NCBI GenBank assembly: GCA_000767215.1
Contig: AXCX01000013.1
Coordinates: 1-38,367 of the forward strand
Direction: 5' to 3'
Source: Actinotalea fermentans ATCC 43279 = JCM 9966 = DSM 3133
GTDB lineage: Bacteria > Actinomycetota > Actinomycetes > Actinomycetales > Cellulomonadaceae
DNA length: 38,367 bases
Shown piece by piece: positions 1-28,326 of this stretch. The translations under genes and the position numbers were made by a program. The notes under the pieces are model-generated. The model saw only the letters and a list, made by a program, of their open reading frames with translations. It made no database searches and was not told the origin of the DNA. Within the stretch, counting starts at the first letter, position 1, and each line of letters opens with the position of its first letter.

Positions 1-23
1 AGGTTCAAATCCTGCCCCCGCTA
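1..23 (+). tRNA. 3' end of initiator tRNA-fMet, cut by the window edge
   Basis: The first bases contain a T-loop of the form TTCAAAT followed by an acceptor 3' strand CCCCGCT and discriminator A. A TTCAAAT T-loop, rather than TTCGAAT, is typical of bacterial initiator tRNA. No CCA is encoded. The rest of the tRNA lies outside the window, so identity rests on the T-arm, the acceptor and comparison with the longer copy near 28.2 kb, which still carries a CTCATA anticodon-loop sequence. Confidence 0.72.
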
Positions 24-29
24 CACAGT

Positions 30-10853: not shown

Positions 10854-11152
10854 CAGACCACTTCCGAGTTCGCCCCATCGCAGGCCCGTCTCGATCGCGG
10901 TCATGACGAGCGGCTTGAAGCGGTCCGGGATCTCGGCCAGCACGCCCGCGAACTCTTCGGGGGTGAGCGTCCTGGCCCTCCTCGTCACGACCTTCGGCGG
11001 CTCGGTGTGCTTGCAGGGGTTGGAGGCGACGAGCCGGTCAGGAACCGCCCGGGCGAACCACCGAGTGCAGCATCACGTGGTACTTGGCGATGGAGCGTGG
11101 CGACAAGCCCTTGGCCACGGCTGAGGCCCACGGCGCTTCCGTACCGCCCGCA
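10854..11152 (-). pseudogene. Tyrosine recombinase (integrase) remnant with a frameshift
   Basis: Reading right to left, the minus strand encodes KGLSPRSIAKYHVMLHSV, then, after a shift of one base, ARAVPDRLVASNPCKHTEPP and LTPEEFAGVLAEIPDRFKPL, ending at ETGLRWGELG. This is the core-binding domain and the start of the catalytic domain of a phage-type integrase, up to the first catalytic Arg region. An extra base near 11058-11060 breaks the frame; removing it restores HSVFARAV. The catalytic C-terminus (HxxR, Tyr) is absent, replaced by the ArsR fragment. It is a dead integrase and evidence of past integration. Confidence 0.75.
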
Positions 11153-14216: not shown

Positions 14217-14579
14217 ATGGCCGACCAGGACGTCGCTCCCTACGGGCCGAGGTACCCCGCTCGGCGGCTGCTCGAGCTCGTCGGTGACAAGTGGACGCCC
14301 ATCGTGCTCTTCAGCCTGTCCGACTCGACGAGGCGCTTCAGCGAGATCCAGCGAGCCATCCCCGACGTGTCGAAGAAGATGCTCATCCAGGTCCTGCGGG
14401 CGCTCGAGCAGGCTGGGCTGGTCGAGCGGACCGTGTACCCGGTGGTGCCGCCAAAGACGGAGTACCGGCTCACGCCCGACGGACGTCGGCTGCACGAGCC
14501 GGTCGCCGCGTTGTGCACCTGGGCCACCGAGCACGAAGCGTTCCTGGACGAGCTGCACAGGCGCCGAGCCGACGGGTGA
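14217..14579 (+). CDS. HxlR-family transcriptional regulator
   Basis: The 120-residue winged-helix protein shows the HxlR signature LLELVGDKWTPIVLFSLSD, the recognition region PDVSKKMLIQVLRALEQAG and the wing VPPKTEYRLTPDG. It lacks the N-terminal Cys seen in the other HxlR protein of this window, so thiol sensing at that position is unlikely. It starts 64 bp from the divergent aldo/keto reductase and most likely regulates it. Confidence 0.9.
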   Translation: MADQDVAPYGPRYPARRLLELVGDKWTPIVLFSLSDSTRRFSEIQRAIPDVSKKMLIQVLRALEQAGLVERTVYPVVPPKTEYRLTPDGRRLHEPVAALCTWATEHEAFLDELHRRRADG

Positions 14580-14701
14580 CGACGGGCGCGTGCGGCGGTG
14601 GCGTCCCGCGAGCAGCGCGATCAGCCCTCAGGGTGCGACGCGGCCGCCGTGCGGCGAATAACTCGATGCACCCGTGTCCCGCCCGGGCATACGTTCGTCA
14701 G

Positions 14702-15391
14702 GTGACCGATCCTCACGAGCCCTTGGATCCGGTGCTGCTCGAGGACGTCCGGGTGGCCGTCTATGCGGCCCTGGCGTCGACCGGTCGGCTGCCGGCCGAC
14801 TCGGAGCTGGCCCGACTCGCAGGAAGCCCCGCCCGCGCAAGGGCCGCGATCGAGCAGCTGGCCGAGCAGCGCGCGTGGGCGCTCGGCGCGGACGGGGAGA
14901 TCGTGCTGGCGCACCCGTTCGCGACCCGGTCGTTCGGCTACAGCGTGATGAGCGACACGACGCTGTGGTGGGGTGGCTGCGCCTGGGACTCCTTCGCGAT
15001 CCCCCATCTCGTGCCCGACTGCGGGCCGGTGGTCGTCGCGGGGGCGTGTCCCGCGTGTGATCGGCCGCTCGCCTGGCGCGTCGACACCACGTCGCCGCCC
15101 GAGGGCCGGGAGCGCGCGCACTTCCTCGTCCCCGCGGCTCGGATGTGGGACGACGTCGTCCACACGTGCAGCAACCAGCTGCTCTTCTGCGACGACGCCT
15201 GCATCGACCGCTGGCTCGCTCGCACGGGCCATCCGGAGGGCTACCGGATGGACCTCGATACGCTGTGGCGCTTCGCCGCGGGGTGGTACGAGGGCCGGCT
15301 CGAGCGGGGCTATCGCCGGCGAGAGCCTGCTGACGCCCGCGCCTACTTCCGACAGGTGGGGCTGCAGGGCCCGTTCTGGGGCCTCAGCTGA
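14702..15391 (+). CDS. merB: Alkylmercury lyase (MerB)-like protein
   Basis: The 229-residue protein matches the MerB layout: an N-terminal helical winged-helix-like part (to about residue 70), then the catalytic core. WGGCAWDSFAIP carries Cys93 and Asp96, and VVHTCSNQLLF carries Cys156. Their spacing (3 and 60) equals that of the catalytic triad Cys96, Asp99 and Cys159 of plasmid MerB, which cleaves carbon-mercury bonds. An extra CPAC motif (residues 116-119) lies between. GTG 14702 has no clear ribosome binding site and may be leaderless; ATG 14666 is an alternative. No merA, merR or mercury transporter is nearby. The activity is inferred, and another role in this family is possible. Confidence 0.78.
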   Translation: MTDPHEPLDPVLLEDVRVAVYAALASTGRLPADSELARLAGSPARARAAIEQLAEQRAWALGADGEIVLAHPFATRSFGYSVMSDTTLWWGGCAWDSFAIPHLVPDCGPVVVAGACPACDRPLAWRVDTTSPPEGRERAHFLVPAARMWDDVVHTCSNQLLFCDDACIDRWLARTGHPEGYRMDLDTLWRFAAGWYEGRLERGYRRREPADARAYFRQVGLQGPFWGLS

Positions 15392-15851
15392 CGACGCTCC
15401 CGCCGGCGAGGTGCGCATCGAAGGCCGCTGCTCGTTCGGTGTCCTCGTAGTCCTCCTGCCGCTGGATCCTCCCCCATCGGGTATCGATCATGAGGACGAC
15501 GCGGTTGCTGTAGACGTCACGGCCGACCTCAGGGCCCGGTACCCAGACGTGGGCCCGCACGGCGGCGCGCAGGGCCCACGGCGGTCCGTTCACGAGGATG
15601 TCCTCCACGGCCATCTGGATGCCGTGCCGCACGTAGCGACGTAGGAACGCCTCGATCTCGTCGCGTCCCTGGTGCGACCGGTGGGCGGAGCGCCCCAGGG
15701 TCGGTTCCCGGAACTGCCCGCTCCACGCGTTCCGTCCGGGGAAGCACAAGGTGGCGCTGCCGGCGAACATGGCCAGCGCCGGCTCGTGGCGCCCGGCGTT
15801 GAGGGCTGCGATGTTGCGTCGAATCATCCAGCGCACGGCGGCCTTGATCAC
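15384..15851 (-). CDS. SnoaL-like (NTF2-fold) protein
   Basis: The 155-residue protein fits the SnoaL/NTF2-like fold: an N-terminal helix (RRNIAALNAGRHEPALAMFA), a middle segment GRDEIEAFLRRYV, and a C-terminal sheet ending with a DTRWGRIQRQEDYED strand. Such proteins can be small isomerases, hydrolases or ligand binders; nothing here identifies the ligand. ATG 15851 overlaps the esterase stop by four bases, so the two are translationally coupled. Its stop overlaps the convergent MerB-like gene by 8 bp. It is the last gene of the TetR-esterase-SnoaL operon. Confidence 0.78.
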   Translation of the reverse strand: MIKAAVRWMIRRNIAALNAGRHEPALAMFAGSATLCFPGRNAWSGQFREPTLGRSAHRSHQGRDEIEAFLRRYVRHGIQMAVEDILVNGPPWALRAAVRAHVWVPGPEVGRDVYSNRVVLMIDTRWGRIQRQEDYEDTERAAAFDAHLAGGSVVS

Positions 15852-16666
15852 GGCGCGACCTCCGCGAGGTCGGACTCGGCCGCCGGCTGCAGCAGCGCCC
15901 GGCCGATGAACGTGAGCGCAGTCCGCTGGAGCTCCGCCATGCCGGCATCCATGTGACCGCCACCTGCGACGACGAGGTACTGGTGGGACACGTCGGCCGC
16001 CAGGAGCTGGGCGTGGAGGTGCTCGCTCCCGTCGCGCAGCCCGAACTCGTCTCGTTCGCCCACGCCGAGGAAGAGCGCCATCCTCCGCTGTCGGATCGCG
16101 TCGAGGTTCGCGAACAGCCGCTCGTGCACACGCTCCCCGGGGAGCTGGTCGAGGGCTGCGAGGAGTTGGCCGAGCACCGCCTGGCGGTTGCGTTCCGGCA
16201 CCTCCGCGGTGGTGCTCCCCGGGAACACGGCAGGCGCCAGTGCCGCGGCCGCGACGTATCGATCCGGGGTTCCGAAGGCCAGCTTCAGCGCACCGAAACC
16301 GCCCATCGAGGCACCTACCACCGCGAGTCGCGAGCGGTCGATGGGGTGGATCTGGCTGACGAAGTCCGGCAGCTCGTCACCGACCACCGATCCCCACCGG
16401 GGCCCCTGCGGCCAGTCGAGGTAGAAGCCGCCCTCGGTGGGGGTGCTCGCGCACGCGACGACGCACGGAGGCAGTGCGCCGGTGGCCCACAGCCGGTGGA
16501 TGAGGGGAGCGTGCAGGTCGAGCGACTGCGCAGACGACATCGCTCCGTGCAGGAGCAGGATCAGCGGGAGCGGCTCGTCCGCCGGGCCGGCGGCGAGGAC
16601 CCGGACCTCGACCCCGGCCGAGGCGCTGGTCGACGGCATGCGGTGTTGCTCGATCTTCGGTGACAT
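15848..16666 (-). CDS. Alpha/beta-hydrolase, putative esterase family
   Basis: The 272-residue cytoplasmic protein has the esterase (PF00756-like) pattern: oxyanion region ILLLHGAMSSAQSLD and nucleophile elbow GASMGG with Ser120. A late VVAGGGHMDAG segment probably holds the catalytic His. GAGGAGG seven bases before ATG 16666 is a strong ribosome binding site. It follows a TetR gene by 52 bases and overlaps a SnoaL-like gene. A paralogue with the same plan lies at 18878-19708; both share a GGFYxDWPxGPxW segment, so they probably arose by duplication. The substrate is unknown. Confidence 0.88.
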   Translation of the reverse strand: MSPKIEQHRMPSTSASAGVEVRVLAAGPADEPLPLILLLHGAMSSAQSLDLHAPLIHRLWATGALPPCVVACASTPTEGGFYLDWPQGPRWGSVVGDELPDFVSQIHPIDRSRLAVVGASMGGFGALKLAFGTPDRYVAAAALAPAVFPGSTTAEVPERNRQAVLGQLLAALDQLPGERVHERLFANLDAIRQRRMALFLGVGERDEFGLRDGSEHLHAQLLAADVSHQYLVVAGGGHMDAGMAELQRTALTFIGRALLQPAAESDLAEVAP

Positions 16667-16718
16667 GAGGGAACCTCCTCGTGACGCGGCACGACCGGCC
16701 GTCCTCCGGGGGAGGGCC

Positions 16719-18877: not shown

Positions 18878-19708
18878 CTACGCCGTGGTGGCGTGGGCGT
18901 GCTGCAGGGCCTCGCCGACGAACCGGATCGCCTCGCGGGTCCTCGTCTCGGCAGCGGGACCGAGGTGCCCGGCCCCCTCGACGAGACGGAACGTGTGCGG
19001 GACTGCCAGCGCCGTGAGGACGCCGTGCAGGTGCTCCGCGCCCTCGTGGAGCAGGTACTCGTCGGCAGCGCCGCAGTCGAGGAGCAGAGGGGTCTGCGCT
19101 GCCCGGAGTGCTGCCGCGTTCGACCGGGCGCGCCCGTGGACGCTGTTGGCCGTGTACGACCCGGCATCGCCGGTCCCGCCGCCCATGGCGGCGTGGAGCT
19201 GCCCGAGGACGGAGGGGATGTTGCGGTCAGGGACCTCCTCCGGCGCCTCTCCGGGGAACACGGCAGGCGAGAGCGCGGCGACGACGGCGAACCGGTGGGG
19301 TGCCGCGAAGGCGATCTTCAGGACCGCGTAGCCGCCCATCGAGGCGCCGACCAGTCCGGTGGCGGAGAACGGACCGTACTGCGCGGCGAGGTGCTCCGGC
19401 AGCTCCCGGGCGGTGAAGGTCTCCCACGCCGGGCCGCCGGGCCAGTCGATGTAGAAGCCGCCCGTGGTCGGCACGCTCGGGCAGGCGACCACGGCGCGCG
19501 GCAGGGCGCCCTCGGCCCACAGCTCGTCGTACAGGGGTCGTGCGAGCTCGAGAGACGTCGAAGACGACAGCGCTCCGTGCAGATGCAGCACGAGGGGGAG
19601 GGTCTCGCCGGGCGTCCAGTCGGCCGGGCGCAGGACCCGGTACTCGACGCGTTGCTCGACCGTGCTGGCATCGAGGTGACTGACGGACATGACGGAGGTG
19701 GGGGTCAT
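18878..19708 (-). CDS. Alpha/beta-hydrolase, putative esterase family (second copy)
   Basis: The 276-residue protein is a paralogue of the esterase at 15848-16666. It has LVLHLHGALSSSTSLELARP, the nucleophile elbow GASMGG with Ser123, and LLDCGAADEYLLHEG, which probably carries the acid residue, with a late GAGHLG His. There is no signal peptide. ATG 19708 has a GAAGGAAG ribosome binding site. It is 128 bp downstream of the MMPL gene on the same strand and may be expressed with it or alone. The substrate is unknown. Confidence 0.88.
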   Translation of the reverse strand: MTPTSVMSVSHLDASTVEQRVEYRVLRPADWTPGETLPLVLHLHGALSSSTSLELARPLYDELWAEGALPRAVVACPSVPTTGGFYIDWPGGPAWETFTARELPEHLAAQYGPFSATGLVGASMGGYAVLKIAFAAPHRFAVVAALSPAVFPGEAPEEVPDRNIPSVLGQLHAAMGGGTGDAGSYTANSVHGRARSNAAALRAAQTPLLLDCGAADEYLLHEGAEHLHGVLTALAVPHTFRLVEGAGHLGPAAETRTREAIRFVGEALQHAHATTA

Positions 19709-19836: not shown

Positions 19837-21960
19837 TCACGCCTGCGCGGCCATCACGGGGCGATCCGTCCTCGGCGACTCGAGTGCCGGGTCTTCCAGG
19901 TGGACGGGGGGGAGCGCGCGGTCCAGCCACGGCGGGAGCCACCACGCCCGGTCGCCGAGGAGGTGCATCACTGCCGGCACGACGAGGCAGCGGACGACGA
20001 CGGCGTCGAGCAGGACGGCGACGGCGAGCCCGAGCCCCATCTGCCCGAGCATCCGGGTGGGGCTGAGCAGGAACGAGCCGAAGACCACCACCATGATCGC
20101 CGCCGCGGCGGTGATGACGGCCCCGGTTCCCGCGAGGCCCTCGCGCACGGCCGTTCGGGCGTCACCGCCGCGCCGCCACTCCTCGTGCATCCGGGAGACG
20201 AGGAAGACCTCGTAGTCCATCGACAGGCCGAACACCACCGCGAACACGATCACGGGGAGGAAGGCCTCGATCGGTCCGGGTGACTGGCCGAGGGTGCCGT
20301 TGCCGTAGACGAGCTGCATGGCTCCCAGTGCGGCCCCGATGGAGAGCAGGTTCGCGATCGCCGCCTTGAGCGGCACGAGGACCGAGCGGAACACCGCCAT
20401 GAGGAGCAGCGCGGAGATCCCGACCACGACGAGGACGAACCACGGCATGCGGTCGCGGACGCCTTCGGCGAAGTCGATCGCCGCTGCGGTCGCGCCACCC
20501 ACCGAGAACTGTCCTTCCGTGGCGGGGGGCAGGACGTCGTCCCGGAGGCGGTGGACGAGCTCGATCGTGGCGCGGTCCGACGGCCCGGTCTCCGGGACCA
20601 CGACAAGGGTGGACGCGCCGTCGGCAGTCAGGGGCCCGACGACGTCCGCGACGCCCGGGGTCCGCCGGACGGCCTCCGTCACCCGAGCCACCTCGTCGGC
20701 GGGGGCCTCGGCGAGCACAACGAGCGGGCCGTTCACCCCATCGCCGAAGCCCGCAGCGAGGAGGTCGTACGCCTCGCGGGTCGTCGAGCCGGCCGGGTCG
20801 GTGCCGGCGTCCGCGAAGCCGAGCCGGATCGAGAGCGCCGGCGCCGCGAGCACGAGCAGGACGAGAACGCCACCGACGAGGGCCGGCCAGGGGTGCCGGG
20901 CGACGGTGTCGGAGAGGGCGCGCCACGACGAGCCTTCGGCCCGGCCCCGTTGCCGCGCGCGGCCCGCGCGTCGGCGGACCGAGCGCTCGATGCGCCCGCC
21001 CAGGAGCGTGAGGAGGGCCGGGAGGAGCGTCGCCGAGGCCAGGAGCGTCATCAGCACGGTGACGGCGACGGCGACGGCGAGCCCACGCAAGGAACCCAGG
21101 CCCAGGACGACGAGGCCCAGCAGAGCGACGACGACCGTCACGCCGGCGAAGACAACCGAGCGCCCGGCGGTGCGCTGGGCGACGACCGCCGCCTCGGCGC
21201 GGGGTCGGCCGGCCAGCAGCTCGCCGCGGTAGCGGGTGAAGATGAGGAGGGCGTAGTCGATCCCCACGCCGAGGCCGACGAGCATCATCATCGGCGCGGC
21301 GTAGGACGGCACGGACGTCACGTGCGAGACCAGGGCGGCCGCCGCGATGCTCGCCCCGACGGCCAGGACCGCGCTCAGCACGGGGAGGGCCGCCGCGACG
21401 AGGCTGCCGAAGAGGAAGACCAGGATCACCAGCGCAGCCAAGATGCCGACGCCCTCGGCGGCGCCGCCCGTCTCCTGCGCACCGCGGACGGACGCGCCGC
21501 CGACCTCGACCTGCAGGTCGCCCGTGGCGTGGGACTCGGCTGCCTCGATGATGCGTCGCACGTCGGCGGCGTCCGTCGCCAGGGGCTCGGTGTCGAGGGT
21601 CACGGTCGCGTACCCGATGCGGCCGTCGGTGCTGATCGAGTGCCCGTCGGTCGTCGGGGCCTCGACCGAGGCGACGCCCGGGAGCGTGGCGATCTCGTCG
21701 ACCACGGCGCGCAACGAACGCGCCACGGGTTCCTCTGTGAGGCCGGCCGCTGCGTAGAAGACGACCTGGACGGTGTCCAGGCCCTGGTCGCCCGACTGCT
21801 GCAGCCGGTCGGCGACGCGCTGCGACTCGGTCCCGGGCAGCGTGTGGTCGTCGAAGTAGGCGGACCCGGCCGCCGCGGCGGCCGCGTTCAGGCCGGCCAC
21901 CGCGAGCACCCAGAGGGCGATCGCCCACCACGGTCGTCGCATCGCCCACGTCGTCCTCAT
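19837..21960 (-). CDS. MMPL-family (RND-type) membrane transporter
   Basis: This 707-residue protein has the MMPL plan in duplicate. One helix near residues 12-32 precedes an outer loop and a cluster of helices (about 170-320). A second helix at about 370 precedes another outer loop and the second cluster (about 540-680). LVGLGVGIDYALLIFTRYR and FGLSMDYEVFLVSRMHEE are the paired GxxxDY-type motifs that carry the proton-relay Asp/Tyr. MMPL proteins export lipids, siderophores or toxic compounds using proton motive force. GGAGG precedes ATG 21960. It lies 183 bp after the multicopper oxidase gene on the same strand. Confidence 0.92.
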   Translation of the reverse strand: MRTTWAMRRPWWAIALWVLAVAGLNAAAAAAGSAYFDDHTLPGTESQRVADRLQQSGDQGLDTVQVVFYAAAGLTEEPVARSLRAVVDEIATLPGVASVEAPTTDGHSISTDGRIGYATVTLDTEPLATDAADVRRIIEAAESHATGDLQVEVGGASVRGAQETGGAAEGVGILAALVILVFLFGSLVAAALPVLSAVLAVGASIAAAALVSHVTSVPSYAAPMMMLVGLGVGIDYALLIFTRYRGELLAGRPRAEAAVVAQRTAGRSVVFAGVTVVVALLGLVVLGLGSLRGLAVAVAVTVLMTLLASATLLPALLTLLGGRIERSVRRRAGRARQRGRAEGSSWRALSDTVARHPWPALVGGVLVLLVLAAPALSIRLGFADAGTDPAGSTTREAYDLLAAGFGDGVNGPLVVLAEAPADEVARVTEAVRRTPGVADVVGPLTADGASTLVVVPETGPSDRATIELVHRLRDDVLPPATEGQFSVGGATAAAIDFAEGVRDRMPWFVLVVVGISALLLMAVFRSVLVPLKAAIANLLSIGAALGAMQLVYGNGTLGQSPGPIEAFLPVIVFAVVFGLSMDYEVFLVSRMHEEWRRGGDARTAVREGLAGTGAVITAAAAIMVVVFGSFLLSPTRMLGQMGLGLAVAVLLDAVVVRCLVVPAVMHLLGDRAWWLPPWLDRALPPVHLEDPALESPRTDRPVMAAQA

Positions 21961-22143
21961 CTTGCCTCCAGTCCTCGTCGTCGCGGCCGGGCAGCCCAGC
22001 CGTCGCCCGGACGGTACGGACGAGGGCGGGCCCGGCCCATCCGTCAGGGAGCGGCGTCTGGGGCCGGTCGCGTACGTCAGCGTGCGACCGGCGTTGTCGC
22101 CCGCGGGCGTACCGGGCCGCTGCGGCGTCGGGGAGGGCCGCGC

Positions 22144-23706
22144 TCAGTGGCCGGCGGCGTGGGACCGGGCCGGCTCCTCGCCGTCGGTCACGACGAACTG
22201 CGCCATGAGGCCCTGGTCCTCGTGCAGGAGGAGGTGGCAGTGGACCATGTACGGGGAGTCGGGGTCCGCGTAGTCCTCGAACCGCATGAGCAGGCGGTAG
22301 GTGCGGCGTGGTTCGAGGTAGACGGTGTCCTTGCGGCCGGCGAGCTCCGGGGATGGGGGCGCGCCGTCCACGTCGAGCACGTGGAACTGCACGTCGTGGA
22401 CGTGCCAGTTGTGCGGGAACCGGTCGAGGTTCGTGACCTCCCAGATCTCCGTGTCACCCACGTGCACGGTCTCGTCGATGCGGTCCATGTCCATGGTCCG
22501 GCCGTTGATGCTGCGGTCCTGGACCTCGAACCTCCGCGTGACCGCCGCGTCGTCCGGATCGACCGCGTCGCCCGGCTCGACCGCCTGGCGCTGGGGGACC
22601 GGCGCGGACTGGCGCAGCGAGGCACCGGCTGCGAGGCGCAGCACCGGGAAGGTGTCGTTGCCGCCGAAGGCGAACGGGGCGGCGACGTCCCCGAGGTCGG
22701 GCGCTCGGGAGACGAGCGTGGTCTCCGAGCTTGGCGCCATGGCGACGACGATCTCCGCGCGTTCGCCGGGTGAGAGACGGACGTGGTCCGTCTCGTGGGG
22801 CTCGGGCAGCAGCCCGCCGTCGGTGGCCACGTGCCAGAAGCTCCGGCCGTCCTCGAGCGCGAAGTCGTACACACGAGCCGTCGAGCCGTTGAGCAGGCGG
22901 AGGCGCACCAGCTCGGTGGTCACGTCGAGCATCGCGCCGGCGACGCCGTTGGTGAGCACCGTGGAGCCGAGGAGGCCGACCTCGTTCCCGTCGGAGTCGA
23001 GCTCGAGCCGCCCGTCGGCGTCGAGCCGCTTGTCCTGGACGACGACGGGGACGTCGTCCACGCCGTACTCGGCGGGCAGCCCCGAGGGAACGCCGTCCTC
23101 CACGAGGAAGAAGCCCGCCAGTCCGCGGTAGACGTGCTCCTCGGTGCTGCCGTGCGGGTGGGGGTGGTACCAGAGGGTCGCCGCCGGCTGGTCGATGGTC
23201 CACTCGGGGCGCCATGTCCCGCCGGGCTCGATCATCTGGTGGGGGCCGCCGTCCATGGCGGCCGGGAGGTGCATCCCGTGCCAGTGCACGGTGGTGGGCT
23301 CCGGCAGGGCGTTGGCGACCTTGACCGCCACGCGCTCCCCACGCGACGCCCGGAGCGTGGGACCGAGCATGTCGCCGTTGAAGCCCCAGGTGGGCGTCCG
23401 GACGCCGGGGAGGAGCTCGGAGGTGCCCTCCTGCGCGGTGAGCTCGAAGACCCGGATCCCGTCGACGACGGTCGAGGGGGCGAGCGGCGGGATGGGGAGT
23501 GGGACGTCGAAGGCCGCGGGCGCCTCCACCGGCGACAAGGACGACGGCCCGACGACGTCCTGGGCGGAGCACGCCGCGGCACCGGCCAGCATGCTCGCCG
23601 CCACCAGCGCCGCCGGGAGGGCTCGGCGGAGATGGGTGCGGCGACGGTCGGACGGGTGTCCGCCCGGCGAGCCGCTGGCATCGATCCGCGCGGGCGCGCC
23701 GGTCAC
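22144..23706 (-). CDS. Multicopper oxidase, exported
   Basis: The 520-residue protein has all copper sites: HWHG at 141-144, HPHPHG at 181-186, a late NWHVHDVQFHVL segment, and HCHLLLHEDQGLM at 489-501 with Cys490 and axial Met501 of type 1 copper. The N-terminus has RRRTHLRRALPAALVAASML, which fits a twin-arginine or Sec signal; AAAC46 is a weak lipobox. GTG 23706 overlaps the previous stop by four bases. This CueO/bilirubin-oxidase-like group oxidises Cu(I), metals or phenolics outside the membrane. It lies downstream of a two-component system and an FAD monooxygenase. The substrate is not determined. Confidence 0.92.
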   Translation of the reverse strand: MTGAPARIDASGSPGGHPSDRRRTHLRRALPAALVAASMLAGAAACSAQDVVGPSSLSPVEAPAAFDVPLPIPPLAPSTVVDGIRVFELTAQEGTSELLPGVRTPTWGFNGDMLGPTLRASRGERVAVKVANALPEPTTVHWHGMHLPAAMDGGPHQMIEPGGTWRPEWTIDQPAATLWYHPHPHGSTEEHVYRGLAGFFLVEDGVPSGLPAEYGVDDVPVVVQDKRLDADGRLELDSDGNEVGLLGSTVLTNGVAGAMLDVTTELVRLRLLNGSTARVYDFALEDGRSFWHVATDGGLLPEPHETDHVRLSPGERAEIVVAMAPSSETTLVSRAPDLGDVAAPFAFGGNDTFPVLRLAAGASLRQSAPVPQRQAVEPGDAVDPDDAAVTRRFEVQDRSINGRTMDMDRIDETVHVGDTEIWEVTNLDRFPHNWHVHDVQFHVLDVDGAPPSPELAGRKDTVYLEPRRTYRLLMRFEDYADPDSPYMVHCHLLLHEDQGLMAQFVVTDGEEPARSHAAGH

Positions 23707-24131
23707 CGGCGCGCCCGCGAGTTCTGGAGCTGTCGGGCCAGGACCCCGGCCAGCGCCCCCAGGCCGGCCGAGCGGGCGATCTCCACGATAGCGACGACGG
23801 CGGCGATGCGGCCGTCGACGGACGGCCGGACGTCGAGCGCGAGGGACAGGCCCAGGAGGAGCACCCCGTAGACGACGCCGGCGAGGGTCAGCGTCGCGAC
23901 AGGTCGGGGGACGCGCCCGAGCCCGGCACCGAGCACCCATGCGAGCCCGACTAGCCCCAGGACGAGCAGGGCGGTGGCCGGTTGGCCCAGTGCCTCGTCC
24001 AGGCCGACGACGTCGACCAGTGGCCAGAGCAGCGCGAGCGAGCCGAAGCCGACGATGAGCGGCCAGCTCAACAGCGGCTGCGGGCCCCGCGGATCGAGGA
24101 CGGGATCTGGGGTGGAGGACTCGTGTGACAT
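23703..24131 (-). CDS. Small integral membrane protein of unknown function
   Basis: The 142-residue product has a polar N-terminus of about 20 residues and four predicted membrane helices (about 22-40, 52-72, 78-100 and 108-130), with a basic C-terminus. I recognise no family motif. Its stop overlaps the multicopper oxidase start as GTGA, which suggests a linked role, for instance supporting oxidase export or electron transfer; that is inference. It starts 49 bases after the FAD monooxygenase stop. Confidence 0.78.
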   Translation of the reverse strand: MSHESSTPDPVLDPRGPQPLLSWPLIVGFGSLALLWPLVDVVGLDEALGQPATALLVLGLVGLAWVLGAGLGRVPRPVATLTLAGVVYGVLLLGLSLALDVRPSVDGRIAAVVAIVEIARSAGLGALAGVLARQLQNSRARR

Positions 24132-24180
24132 GCCGGGACGGTACGGAGCGGCTGCGCCGACCCGCGTCGTGCTCGTGTCG

Positions 24181-25248
24181 TCACCTGGTGTCGCCCGTCG
24201 GCGACGTCGAGGTCGCCTGTCGGCGAGCGCCGTCGGCGGCCCGGACGAGCGCGTCGCGAAGCGGGATGCCGCGCTCGAGGGTGGACGCCCGGTTCGCGAG
24301 GCGGGCGAGCCGCACCAGGCGCCGGGTGGCCGGCCTGCGCTCGCGGTCGTAGCGGCGCAGCGCCGTCTCGACCCGGTGCTCCTCGCGCACCGCGCGTGCG
24401 AGCGCCACGGCGTCGAGGATCGTCTCGCACGCCCCGCGGCCCAGGTTCGGTGCCATGGCGTGTGCGGCGTCGCCGAGAAGTGCGACGTTCCCGCGCACGT
24501 AGGGCCCCAACGCTGGGACGTCCGAGAGTCGGCGCCTGTCGACGGTGCCGGGTTCCACGGCCGCGAGCACGGCCGAGACGTCCTCGTGCCAGCCGGCGAA
24601 GAGGGCGTGGAGGTCGTCCGTCATCCGTACGGGGTCATCTCCGGCGGGCGCCGACCCGGCGCGCACGCAGGCGAACCAGTTCGTCGTGCCGTCCCCGTTC
24701 GGGGTGATCCCGAAGAGCCGGCCGGGTCCCCACGTCTCGGTGATGCGGTCGACGGCACCTGGCACCGTGCCGCGGAAGGCCACCGTGCGCAGGACCCGTG
24801 GGCCTACCGCCCAGTGGGCGGAGCGGACGCTCGAGTGGATGCCGTCGGCGGCCACCACCAGGTCGGCCGCAGGTAGCATCCGGGGGTCCGTGACCTGTAC
24901 GCCCCACTGCACGGTGCCCGCGGGCAGGCTGCGGGCGAGGACGTCCAGCAGGTCACCGCGCGACACGAGCTGCACGCCACCGGGGACGCCGACGCCGGTG
25001 AGGGTGCGGCCGTCCGGCCGGAGGATCTCCGCACGCGTGCACATGACGGAGCGCCGTCGCACGTCGTCGCCCAGCCCGAGCGCGTCGAGCGCTCCCATCG
25101 CCGCGGGCCACATGCCGAGGGCGGTGCCCCGGCGGGGCGGCGCGGGGGAGCGTTCGAGGACGACCGCCTCCCATCCGGCGAGGTGGAGCGCCCGCGCGAC
25201 AGCCAGGCCTCCGATGCCCCCGCCGACGACGACGGCAGAACCGCGCAC
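24181..25248 (-). CDS. FAD-dependent monooxygenase (group A aromatic hydroxylase type)
   Basis: The 355-residue protein has the three fingerprints of flavoprotein hydroxylases: VVVGGGIGGLAVARAL (FAD dinucleotide fold), ADLVVAADGIHSSVR (DG motif) and GNVALLGDAAHAMAPNLGRG (GD motif). It uses NAD(P)H and oxygen to hydroxylate aromatic or polyketide-like substrates. GTG 25248 has an AGGAGGTG ribosome binding site. It begins 29 bases after the response regulator stop, so kinase, regulator and monooxygenase probably share a transcript. The substrate is unknown. Confidence 0.9.
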   Translation of the reverse strand: MRGSAVVVGGGIGGLAVARALHLAGWEAVVLERSPAPPRRGTALGMWPAAMGALDALGLGDDVRRRSVMCTRAEILRPDGRTLTGVGVPGGVQLVSRGDLLDVLARSLPAGTVQWGVQVTDPRMLPAADLVVAADGIHSSVRSAHWAVGPRVLRTVAFRGTVPGAVDRITETWGPGRLFGITPNGDGTTNWFACVRAGSAPAGDDPVRMTDDLHALFAGWHEDVSAVLAAVEPGTVDRRRLSDVPALGPYVRGNVALLGDAAHAMAPNLGRGACETILDAVALARAVREEHRVETALRRYDRERRPATRRLVRLARLANRASTLERGIPLRDALVRAADGARRQATSTSPTGDTR

Positions 25249-25277
25249 AGCACCTCCTCTGGTCGGGCCGCCGACGG

Positions 25278-25925
25278 TCAGGCCAGCCCGGACCGGTGGG
25301 CGATGATGGCGAGCTCGGTCCGGTCCCGCGCGTCGAGCTTGGCCAGGATCCGGCTGACGTAGGTGCGGGCCGTCGCCGGGCTGATGTACAGGACCGCGGC
25401 GATCTCGTCGTTGGTGTCGCCGTGACCGACCCGCTGGAGCACCTCGAGCTCGCGCTCGCTGAGCGTGTCGAGCCGGGGATGGGGCTGCGGCTGCGGCGGG
25501 CTCGCGGCAACGAAGTCCATGAGGCGACGCGTGATCGCCGGTGAGAGCAGGTTGCCTCCGGAAGCGGCGGTGTGAACCGCCTGCCGCAGGTCGGGTCCGG
25601 GGGTGTCCTTGAGGAGGTACCCCGCCGCGCCGACACGCACCGCCTCGATGACGTCGGCGTCGTCATCGAACGTCGTGAGGATGAGGACGCGGGTCGCCTC
25701 GAGGCGCACGTCGGCCCGGATCCGCCGCGTGGCCTCGATCCCGTCCGTGCCCGGCATCCGGATGTCCATGAGCACGACATCGGGCCGGTGCCGCACCGCC
25801 AGCTCCACGGCACGGGCACCGTCCGTCGCCTCGGCGACGACGGTGATCGTCGGGTCGCTCGTGAGCAGGGCGCGCAGGCCGGCGCGCACGAGGTCCTGGT
25901 CGTCGACCATCAGAACTGTCGTCAT
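25278..25925 (-). CDS. NarL/FixJ-type response regulator
   Basis: The 215-residue protein has a receiver domain with acidic Asp8 and Asp9, phosphoacceptor Asp54 (VLMDIRMPGTDG) and Lys106 (LLKDTPG). A LuxR-type helix-turn-helix is at the C-terminus (LSERELEVLQRVGHG, DEIAAVLYISPATARTYVSR). Its ATG overlaps the kinase stop by four bases, so the pair is coupled. Likely targets are the downstream monooxygenase, oxidase and exporter genes, or the divergent membrane genes at 27.2 kb; this is inferred from position. Confidence 0.94.
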   Translation of the reverse strand: MTTVLMVDDQDLVRAGLRALLTSDPTITVVAEATDGARAVELAVRHRPDVVLMDIRMPGTDGIEATRRIRADVRLEATRVLILTTFDDDADVIEAVRVGAAGYLLKDTPGPDLRQAVHTAASGGNLLSPAITRRLMDFVAASPPQPQPHPRLDTLSERELEVLQRVGHGDTNDEIAAVLYISPATARTYVSRILAKLDARDRTELAIIAHRSGLA

Positions 25926-27091
25926 CGCTCCTCCCCGAGGGGCATCGTCGCCGCGACGACGAAACCGGTGGCTGTCCAGCCGGCATCGAGCGTCCCGCCG
26001 AGCGCCTCGGCCCGCTCACGCATCCCGGCGATCCCGTGGCCCGCCGACGGTTCCCCGTGCTCGGTGGGCGGGCGGCTGCCGTCGTCCTCGACGCGGACGT
26101 GCAGCATCCCGGCCGCCGTGTGCACGGCCACGCGGATCCGACGGGCGTGGGCGTGGCGGACGACGTTGGTCACCGACTCCTGGACGATCCGGTAGGCCGC
26201 CGCCTCGACGGCCGCCGGGATCGGCTCGCCGAGGGTGACCTCGTCGACGACCTCGAGCCCGGCGACGCGCGCCGGCCGGACCGCCGAGGCGAGGGCACTC
26301 AGGCCTGGCACCTCGCGCGACGTCTGGCCCGGCCGCCGCAGGAGGGCGACCGTGCGCCGGAGGTCCGCGAGCGTGCTGGTCGTCGTCTCCTGGATGACGG
26401 CGACCGCCTGCGCCACCGCGGCGTCGTCGCGCCCGACGGACTCGGCGGCCACCTGCGCGTGCAGGGCGACGACGGTCATCGCGTGGCCGACGGAGTCGTG
26501 CACGTCCCGCGCCATGGTCAGGCGTTCGGCGGTGAGGCGTTCCTCGGCCTCGCGGCGGTAGCGCTCGGCCACGAGGTCCGCGATCTCCCGTGCGCGCGCT
26601 TGGAGCGCCCGACGGGAACGGACGCCGTCCCCCAGCGCGACGGCGGCGGCGAGCATGAGGGCGTTCCAGACGAGCTCGTACCCGAGGACGAAGTCGGCCG
26701 CCTGGCCGACGGCGAGCCGGTACCCCGTCGAGATCGCCAGGACAGCCACGGATCCGAGGACCGCGACGGCGGTGCGGCCCACCTCGGCCGCGGAGAAGAC
26801 GGCGGCGGCGACGGGCACGGCAACCCCGACGGGCGGGTAGCCGGCGGCGTAGTAGGCGAGCAGGCCGCCGACGGTGAGCGCCACGACGAGGGCCGGATAG
26901 CGTCGGCGCACGAGCATGAGCGCCCCGAGCCCCGCGGCCCAGAGGTAGGGCATGGCCCCGGGCCGCGACCCGTCGACGTCCGCGGTGATCACCAAGGACA
27001 GCGTCAGGGCGACGGACGCCGCCAGGATCGCGTCGGCGACCCAGGGGGCGGTCTCTGCGACGGCGTCCTGGGCAGCGGTGTCGGCAGGCAT
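25922..27091 (-). CDS. Sensor histidine kinase (HisKA_3 type)
   Basis: The 389-residue protein has an N-terminal region of about five membrane helices (residues 18-155) with no large outer domain. A linker helix leads to the H-box MARDVHDSVGHAMTV with His198. A C-terminal ATPase domain follows, with an N-box (RIVQESVTNVVRHAHARRI) and G-box (HGIAGMRERAEALGG). This is the NarL-partner kinase type with intramembrane sensing. The stop overlaps the response regulator start. It diverges from two small membrane protein genes 132 bp away. The signal is unknown; membrane or envelope stress is typical for this topology. Confidence 0.93.
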   Translation of the reverse strand: MPADTAAQDAVAETAPWVADAILAASVALTLSLVITADVDGSRPGAMPYLWAAGLGALMLVRRRYPALVVALTVGGLLAYYAAGYPPVGVAVPVAAAVFSAAEVGRTAVAVLGSVAVLAISTGYRLAVGQAADFVLGYELVWNALMLAAAVALGDGVRSRRALQARAREIADLVAERYRREAEERLTAERLTMARDVHDSVGHAMTVVALHAQVAAESVGRDDAAVAQAVAVIQETTTSTLADLRRTVALLRRPGQTSREVPGLSALASAVRPARVAGLEVVDEVTLGEPIPAAVEAAAYRIVQESVTNVVRHAHARRIRVAVHTAAGMLHVRVEDDGSRPPTEHGEPSAGHGIAGMRERAEALGGTLDAGWTATGFVVAATMPLGEER

Positions 27092-27223
27092 GCCGCCAGG
27101 GTAGGCAGCGTCCGTCGGCGCCGGGAGTCGCCACGGGGCGACTCCCGGCGTCGCCCTGGACCGTATGGAGGTCCTGATCCCGGACCGACGCGGCGCAGTA
27201 CGAGAATTTCTACGGTCGGCGCC

Positions 27224-27757
27224 ATGACTACTTCGACTCCTCCCGTTTCCCGTCAGCTCGGCCCGTCAGCCGTCGACCACACGCCCCGACGGGCTGGCCC
27301 CGTGCGGCGGTTCCTCGGGCTCCCCACGACCGCCGTCGTCGGTCTCGCCGCCCTCGGGCTGCCGCGGGTCGTCCTGCACGACTTCGGTGTTCTGACCGGT
27401 AGCTCGGTCACGTCCTTCCTCCTCGCCGTGCTCCCGCTCGTCGCGTGGGTCGTCGTCGCGACGCGGCCCGTCGTGCGGGCGCCCTTCCTCGCCCTCGTCG
27501 CGACCGGCGCGGTCCACGGCGTCCTCCTCGCGGCGACCCACCAGCTGCTCTGGACGCGCGCGTTCGACGGCGCGCCCCCTCGGCTCGGCGACAACCTCGC
27601 GGGCATCGACCCGGAGCTGCAGGACGTGGTGCTCCGCGGCGCCGCCGTGTTCTCCGGGATGCACACCGGGCTCGCGCTCGGCGTGCTGACGGGCGCCGTC
27701 GCCTGGGCGATCGTGCGCCGGCAGCGCCGGGCGGCAGTCCAGTCGTCCTCCCGATGA
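27224..27757 (+). CDS. Membrane protein of unknown function
   Basis: The 177-residue product has a soluble N-terminus of about 30 residues and four predicted membrane helices. It contains conserved-looking polar residues at helix ends (RVVLHDFG, THQLLWTRAFDG). I do not recognise a family. Its stop overlaps the next start as ATGA. It is divergent from the histidine kinase with a 132-bp shared promoter region, so control by that two-component system is plausible. Confidence 0.78.
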   Translation: MTTSTPPVSRQLGPSAVDHTPRRAGPVRRFLGLPTTAVVGLAALGLPRVVLHDFGVLTGSSVTSFLLAVLPLVAWVVVATRPVVRAPFLALVATGAVHGVLLAATHQLLWTRAFDGAPPRLGDNLAGIDPELQDVVLRGAAVFSGMHTGLALGVLTGAVAWAIVRRQRRAAVQSSSR

Positions 27758-28164
27758 CACGGGGGCCGGGCACCCGGGCTGCCACCCACCGCCCGACGGT
27801 GGCCTGGCTGACCGGGAGCGCGCTCCTGGTACCCGTCCTCAGCGGCGCGACGCCGGCCGCCAGCCCAGGTGAGGGGCCGGTCGTGCCCCGGGGGTCGGCG
27901 CACCTGCTCGTCCTGGGGGTCTGGGTGGCGGTCGTCGTCTTCGGACGGCGACCGTCACCCCTGCGCACACTAGCCCTGTGCGGCGTCCTGGCCGGGCCGC
28001 TCGTCGTGATCGCCGATGCGGCCCTGGCGACGTACACCGGTGTCGCGTCACACGTGGCGGGGCGCGACGCCTTCGCCGTCATCGCGGAACTGTTGCGGTG
28101 GGCCGGGGCCGGTCTGGCGGCCGGTGTCGTCGCGCTGGTGATCCTTCGGCTCGGGCGATCTTGA
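27754..28164 (+). CDS. Membrane protein of unknown function
   Basis: The 136-residue product has four predicted membrane helices and short polar ends. The start overlaps the previous membrane gene by four bases, so the two proteins probably work together, perhaps as a complex. A YTGVASHVAGRDAFA loop lies before the last helix. I recognise no family. It is the last gene before the tRNA fragment that marks the right end of the possible island. Confidence 0.72.
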   Translation: MTRGPGTRAATHRPTVAWLTGSALLVPVLSGATPAASPGEGPVVPRGSAHLLVLGVWVAVVVFGRRPSPLRTLALCGVLAGPLVVIADAALATYTGVASHVAGRDAFAVIAELLRWAGAGLAAGVVALVILRLGRS

Positions 28165-28226: not shown

Positions 28227-28267
28227 CTCATACCCAGAGGTCGCAGGTTCAAATCCTGCCCCCGCTA
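28227..28267 (+). pseudogene. 3' fragment of tRNA-fMet, probable attachment-site remnant
   Basis: From the anticodon-loop sequence CTCATA onward the bases match an initiator tRNA: half of the anticodon stem (CCCAG), variable loop, T-arm with TTCAAAT loop, and acceptor 3' strand. The D-arm and 5' half are replaced by unrelated sequence, so it cannot fold as a tRNA. Positions 28245-28268 are identical to 1-24. A break at the anticodon loop is typical of tyrosine-integrase crossover in tRNA genes. Confidence 0.75.
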
Positions 28268-28326
28268 CTCATCACGAAGGCCCGGACCATGAGGTCCGGG
28301 CCTTCGTGATGAGTAGCGGGGGCAGG
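28255..28326. terminator. Perfect 34-bp hairpin that includes the tRNA end
   Basis: Two perfect 34-bp arms (28255-28288 and 28293-28326) flank an ATGA loop. The inner part matches the terminator at 30-65. The outer 14 bp of the left arm are the tRNA 3' end, so the right arm carries an inverted copy of it. It could act as a terminator on both strands or be a product of recombination or inverted duplication. Confidence 0.8.

Follow-up and report, generated by a model that had tools for sequence, protein, structure and literature searches.

A NarL-type two-component system, a CueO-like multicopper oxidase and related small membrane proteins suggest one small response system in Actinotalea fermentans

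A block of genes in Actinotalea fermentans ATCC 43279 (positions 19,837 to 28,164 of contig AXCX01000013.1) encodes a histidine kinase (HK) with its response regulator (RR), a multicopper oxidase (MCO) and three small membrane proteins (TM142, TMa177 and TMb136); a DNA motif recurring in many relatives points to a small dedicated response system made up of them. The window, i.e. the whole stretch of 38,367 nucleotides that we analyzed, is the entire contig C34, one of 841 contigs that make up a 3.6-Mb genome. Gene content, a conserved four-gene core, the common ancestry of the small proteins and a palindromic motif with its position are read directly from the sequence. The explanation that we favor, with moderate confidence, is a local and probably self-regulated two-component system for envelope defence against a redox-active toxicant that is oxidised by MCO. 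It would bring together, in one testable regulon with a candidate operator, a copper oxidase of actinobacteria, a family of kinases with their regulators and a family of membrane proteins that has no name so far.

HK (25922-27091, minus strand; 389 amino acids) has five predicted membrane segments, based on hydropathy in a 27-row alignment, and the Pfam domains HisKA_3 and HATPase_c. RR (25278-25925, minus strand; 215 amino acids) consists of Response_reg and GerE, and together with the overlap of both genes this defines a NarL/LuxR-type two-component pair. On the same strand follow an FAD-dependent monooxygenase (FMO; 24181-25248, 355 amino acids, FAD_binding_3), the four-helix protein TM142 (23703-24131, 142 amino acids), MCO (22144-23706, GTG start, Cu-oxidase_3 and Cu-oxidase_2), which is CueO-like and a predicted lipoprotein, and an MMPL-family transporter (19837-21960, 707 amino acids, Pfam MMPL). 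TMa177 (27224-27757) and TMb136 (27754-28164) are encoded divergently on the plus strand. All the genes listed in a first-pass annotation of this DNA (kinase, regulator, FAD monooxygenase, membrane proteins, MCO and MMPL) are present with agreeing Pfam domains, and the three overlapping pairs that it had counted, HK/RR, TM142/MCO and TMa177/TMb136, share 4 bases each. Its description of tight packing agrees with the gaps between RR and FMO (29 bases) and FMO and TM142 (49 bases); MMPL is next in line, as it had noted, but stands apart, 183 bases beyond MCO.

Comparison across genomes separated a constant part of the block from variable additions. Searching 99 genomes, own genome included, we found an MCO of 53-66% identity in 13 other genomes, none of them among the 18 genomes of the same genus, where the top match reached 36% identity (E 9.4e-50). 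In the seven loci with 61-66% identity, HK-RR stands divergent from TM142-MCO; the six with 53-56% identity lack a TM142 match, and in two of these (L049 and L051) kinase and regulator give weaker matches at another place in the stretch. An FMO match is missing from all 13 loci. Named genomes were scanned with eight aligned MCOs as the query; this confirmed 569 loci, the best 80 of which were analyzed (the 80 named loci). Here, TM142 is located immediately 5' of MCO in 14 loci from Georgenia, Promicromonospora, Myceligenerans, Cellulomonas, Brevibacterium, Isoptericola, Microbacterium, Cellulosimicrobium and Arthrobacter. All 14 have a divergent HK, which is adjoined by RR in 13; in the remaining one (L070) RR lies beyond MCO. 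One further named locus, L053, has a strong HK without TM142, and the window-type kinase was not found in the rest of the 80, several loci of Rhodococcus, Prescottella, Speluncibacter, Mycolicibacterium and Nocardia carrying a more distant kinase-regulator pair next to MCO. A neighbor comparison of 23 loci revealed no further gene group in more than five, apart from opposite-strand shadows of the core. Judged by gene order, the conserved core is HK, RR, TM142 and MCO, and chance adjacency of these genes was rejected on the conserved order together with the motif described below.

The promoter regions of this core often carry the motif GTCGCY-N4-RGCGAC, which first came to notice on visual inspection of the window and loci L040-L044 and is likely to be the RR operator. 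In the window, an exact site (GTCGCC-N4-GGCGAC, 27127-27142) lies between HK and TMa177. A second exact site (24190-24205) is located 58 bases 5' of TM142 within the 3' end of FMO, and a copy with one mismatch (24212-24227) stands 22 bases further upstream, so that the TM142-MCO promoter retains its own motif copy despite FMO now standing between TM142 and HK. In 112 loci (2,138,068 bases), 18 of the 22 exact matches that we counted stand upstream of an HK, and none of ten other spacings (0 to 10) gave an exact match upstream of an HK in the same loci. Thereby 18 of the 28 loci with a strong HK in this discovery set carry an exact site upstream of HK, or 16 of 26 without the duplicate records (L040 equals L055, L044 equals L064).

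The motif was then scored in a held-out set of 25 TM142 loci, reduced to 23 by removing L231 and L233, which are identical to L070 and L065 and have no site. It still includes two near relatives (L238 and L240) of the discovery locus L068. MCO adjoins TM142 in 19 of the 23 loci and lies further on in L254. Fourteen exact sites occurred in 13 loci, all between HK and TM142, and each of these 13 loci shares at most 2.4% of its 40-mers with any discovery locus. Other spacings in the 25 loci yielded two exact matches for N0, one for N5, four for N8 and none for the remainder. An 18-base form (TGTCGCY-N4-RGCGACA) is found at nine places in seven relative genomes, five of them in the HK/TM142-MCO locus, and two of the seven (G033 and G072) have no such site in the locus. 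The other four sites fall inside predicted frames, as does the locus site of G049, which a rough frame test placed in an upstream extension of the HK frame. A small regulon is to be expected, because the full motif is nearly confined to the locus among the relatives examined. In the own genome, 14 exact 16-base sites, two of them in the window, compare with three for a backward control. In the loci compared (32 sites), second copies of the motif score best 23 bases to either side (offset +23, 6.1 of 12; offset -23, 5.6 of 12), against an average of 4.2 (sd 0.5) across offsets. A GGGCCGATGTG stretch together with a hexamer resembling TAGCGT stands just before the start codon in many relatives (by eye), and no sigma-70 consensus promoter was detected between 19600 and 28400 in the window. 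The gene-order search proposed by the first-pass annotation thus bears out its idea of one linked system for HK, RR, a TM142-type protein and MCO, which occur together across genera and, in the window, have the putative operator at both promoter regions; FMO accompanies them in a minority of loci, and the position of MMPL is not conserved.

The first-pass annotation had also noted two divergent small membrane proteins as possible extra sensors or effectors. Both are there, and both turned out to be related to the third one. TMb136 scored 36.8 bits against a hidden Markov model (HMM) of the TM142 family, and the top score among 402 controls, either shuffled or reversed, was 5.9. TMa177 alone reached 5.3 bits, not above its own shuffles, while its family profile (18 rows) and that of TM142 (10 rows) aligned across 127 columns with 98.7% probability (E 4.2e-16). 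On this sequence evidence TM142, TMa177 and TMb136 are one family of common ancestry. None of the three matched Pfam at E 0.01, and a Pfam name was rejected because matches of the 18 and 10 family members were weak and inconsistent (best E 0.0021, DUF5690, in 2 of 10). The predicted structure of TM142 shows four long helices in a model of moderate quality (mean pLDDT 72.4, pTM 0.51), and a Foldseek search of this model against the PDB gave no hit at 0.001 (best E 0.39). Among 396 genomes of the order (own genome included), 38 have a TM142-family match (E 1e-6), and a TMa177 relative occurs in 18 genomes besides the own one. A strong HK lies near the TMa177 relative in five of 18 such loci (L187, L188, L190, L191 and L197), three of which (L188, L190 and L197) also contain a separate TM142-family gene; in L199, the regulator match reached 226 bits. 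With a strong HK in five of 18 loci, the family is a frequent, not a constant, companion of HK.

In the mechanism that we propose, the kinase would detect a condition within or at the membrane and then phosphorylate the NarL-type regulator, which in turn may bind GTCGCY-N4-RGCGAC and activate transcription. One copy in the window would serve HK-RR(-FMO) and the divergent TMa177-TMb136 pair, and the second one TM142-MCO. The outputs would be a CueO-like oxidase, which sits outside the membrane on a lipoprotein anchor, and the related small membrane proteins; the cytoplasmic FMO and perhaps also the MMPL exporter have been added to these in this organism. The likeliest job would be envelope defence against a phenol, a quinone or copper, oxidised by MCO.

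Several observations weigh against this explanation. An exact site is missing in 10 of the 28 discovery and in 10 of the 23 held-out loci. In the discovery set, four of these have a site with a single mismatch (L039, L058, L109 and L188), five have none upstream of HK (L065, L068, L070, L190 and L191) and the match in L187 falls within the HK stretch; the Brevibacterium loci L065, L068 and L070 have nothing upstream of HK even at one mismatch. In the held-out set, a site with one mismatch is present between HK and TM142 in L238, L241, L250 and L253, and none in six loci. Of the 12 exact sites that the own genome has beyond the window, seven lie in predicted frames, one spans a frame end and four could not be placed. 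A 20-base form with one mismatch occurs in 78 of 101 family genomes and is not specific at that level; since such matches are widespread and a backward control also gives scattered ones, they say little alone. Furthermore, 13 of the 18 TMa177 loci have no strong HK match within the stretch compared.

Regarding the signal, a response to copper excess like CopRS of Corynebacterium glutamicum is a close rival that we nevertheless rate as distinctly less probable: here, copper would activate the kinase and MCO would oxidise Cu(I) outside the membrane. CopRS is the nearest described system, a two-component system with a divergent cluster including a multicopper oxidase, which answers to copper through a local, self-activating regulon (PMC3353115). 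Its regulator CopR is of the OmpR type, and its kinase CopS combines HisKA with a HAMP domain and two membrane helices (PMC3353115). The pair of the window shares the divergent oxidase cluster and, as proposed here, a local and self-activating regulon, but it is NarL-type with HisKA_3 and about five helices instead of the OmpR/HisKA/HAMP build; it also differs from CopRS in its operator, in the lack of a common copper pump and in its small membrane proteins of one family.

The closest solved relatives of MCO are CueO and other copper efflux oxidases, with which it shares the sequence family and the copper-ligand clusters, and the predicted lipoprotein anchor resembles that of MmcO, a lipoprotein-anchored multicopper oxidase of mycobacteria. 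In all eight aligned MCOs, the cysteine after the signal segment is invariant and the histidine clusters are intact, with the ligand motifs HWHG, YHPHPHG, PHxxHVH and HCHxxxH of the CueO type; these motifs predict that MCO is a functional oxidase, lipid-anchored on the outer side of the membrane. In contrast to the CueO-type oxidases, however, MCO is next to NarL-type control genes, lacks the Met-rich insert and, in an alignment to solved CueO-type chains, has leucine in place of the axial methionine that stands beside the type 1 copper of CueO. Leucine at this place without a Met-rich insert favors laccase-like chemistry, albeit not decisively. The leucine is found in 13 of 93 scorable MCOs, including those of the window, L053 and L261, and the NCBIfam CueO model gave 390 bits for the window MCO, below its cut-off of 525. 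Furthermore, the 27 kinase sensor regions contain no column with His or Cys at 40% or more, and no copper pump, chaperone or copper repressor is a common neighbor in the 23 loci (groups judged by eye). Based on the missing His/Cys sensor column and these MCO features, we lean towards a membrane-borne redox-active toxicant as the signal.

The first-pass annotation had favored an aromatic compound that FMO would hydroxylate inside the cell, MCO would oxidise outside and MMPL would export, which we consider about as doubtful as the copper response. The FMO part of this view has gained some ground. An FMO-like gene is located within 4 kb of MCO in six of the 80 named loci (L053, L108, L112, L118, L123 and L131; the L118 gene is cut off by a contig end, and this locus is a close relative of L131). 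L053, from a Microbacterium metagenome-assembled genome, combines FMO with HK, RR, MCO and a TMa177 relative; its HK is preceded by an operator, and a one-mismatch version stands between FMO and MCO. L261 (genome G499) carries FMO, a TM142 relative, HK, RR, a second TM142-family gene and MCO on a single strand, with no exact operator in this core. In a tree of 35 FMOs including the six MCO-linked ones, the MCO-linked enzymes form two groups and thus have at least two separate origins beside MCO; the group of the window, L053 and L261 has a support of 95/69, under the mark of the program. Because the pairing of FMO and MCO recurs in six of 80 loci and L261 with two FMO lineages, it seems meaningful, and, as judged from the tree, FMO is a minority partner of the core that was recruited beside MCO at least twice. 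The axial leucine shared by the MCOs of the window, L053 and L261 and a promoter element common to MMPL and TM142 also fit an aromatic compound. On the other hand, most core loci contain neither FMO nor MMPL, so that neither is needed for the basic function, and FMO remained below the cut-off of every named NCBIfam model (urate, salicylate, 3-hydroxybenzoate and tetracycline; best 152.8 bits against 365), including HpxO (148.3 bits against 500). FMO on plasmids was considered and rejected (17 Streptomyces records, at most 79% query coverage, less than 60% identity). In L112 and L123, which have no exact or one-mismatch operator near HK, a GCCGATGG...TTCCTAGCGTCG stretch upstream of FMO resembles the one before TM142 in other genera (by eye). 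Two operator copies with one mismatch each, 22 bases apart, precede another gene pair in L053 (12586-12623), one of them ArsR-like by eye, which is a possible further target of the regulator.

As to MMPL, its place in a conserved block did not survive the comparison: no match was found in the 13 MCO loci or in L261, and the single one in the 80 named loci (L132) is 6.9 kb from MCO in a locus without an HK match. What ties it in is the common promoter element, found on the minus strand directly before TM142 as TCCGTACCGTCCCGGC (24132-24147) and 44 bases before MMPL as TCCGTACCGTCCGGGC (22005-22020). In the form TCCGTACCGTNCNGGC, the element has these two occurrences in the whole genome and no third, and among 261 loci it is found once apart from the window copies, before the MCO of L053. 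As it was defined by eye from the promoters of TM142, MMPL and L053, the two window matches are no independent test; they hint that MMPL may have joined the regulon in this genome. An operator before MMPL was rejected, as the best N4 match has two mismatches (a half-site pair with N10 spacing, also with two, was not counted). The MmpL3 model of NCBIfam gave 248 bits (cut-off 1400), and no exporter model with a named substrate reached its cut-off.

That only the core belongs together, with FMO, TMa177-TMb136 and MMPL placed next to it by accidents of insertion into a mobile island, is improbable: a duplicated tRNA-Met 3' end beside the block, an integrase remnant in the stretch, the low identity of the best MCO match within the genus and the non-conserved position of MMPL would fit, but FMO recurs with HK, RR, MCO and small membrane proteins in L053 and L261, TMa177 relatives adjoin HK-RR in five of 18 loci, and putative operators flank FMO and the TMa177-TMb136 region in the window.

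Under the explanation of a local system for envelope defence, the small membrane proteins allow a wider reading, which is more speculative still. They may be a new family of signalling partners, i.e. membrane partners of the kinase in a three-part sensor that bind the true signal, for example an oxidised lipid or a redox-active hydrophobic compound. One and the same operator module might then serve different outputs across actinobacteria, namely MCO, FMO with MCO, or the small proteins alone. LiaFSR-like three-part systems combine a kinase-regulator pair of the NarL type, in which the membrane sensor is short, with a co-encoded small membrane protein. The likeness lies in these features; the small proteins of the window, however, belong to no convincing Pfam family, and any contact with the kinase would be hypothetical. 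In searches of the open-access literature we recognised no description of the gene combination, the operator motif or the membrane-protein family, although the kinds of part are known.

The surroundings of the block contain traces of mobility. A 27-base direct repeat (window 1-27 and 28245-28271, 26 identical) corresponds to the 3' terminus of a complete tRNA-Met gene on another contig (G000:C266:16062-16136), and its right copy extends into the anticodon arm. The contig itself starts inside the repeat, and the 28.2-kb stretch between the copies, which contains the whole block, looks like a tRNA-borne island. Within it, a tyrosine integrase remnant (10860-11072, minus strand; PHROG integrase, E 3.5e-11) runs into an ArsR-type helix-turn-helix fragment and is a decayed mobile element. 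On contig C266, an IS3-like transposase OrfA (L003 773-1090, minus strand; by eye) is encoded near the 3' side of the intact tRNA-Met. After the tRNA fragment, a long near-perfect inverted repeat (window 28255-28326; 94% match to its own reverse complement over 72 bases) is possibly a terminator grown from the attachment site. The presumed island also includes a gene with a C-terminal MerB (alkylmercury lyase) domain (14291-15391, plus strand; E 2.3e-18). Finally, two related putative esterases (15848-16669 and 18878-19708, minus strand; 205 bits mutually) flank a TetR-type regulator and small genes, the second one ending beside MMPL.

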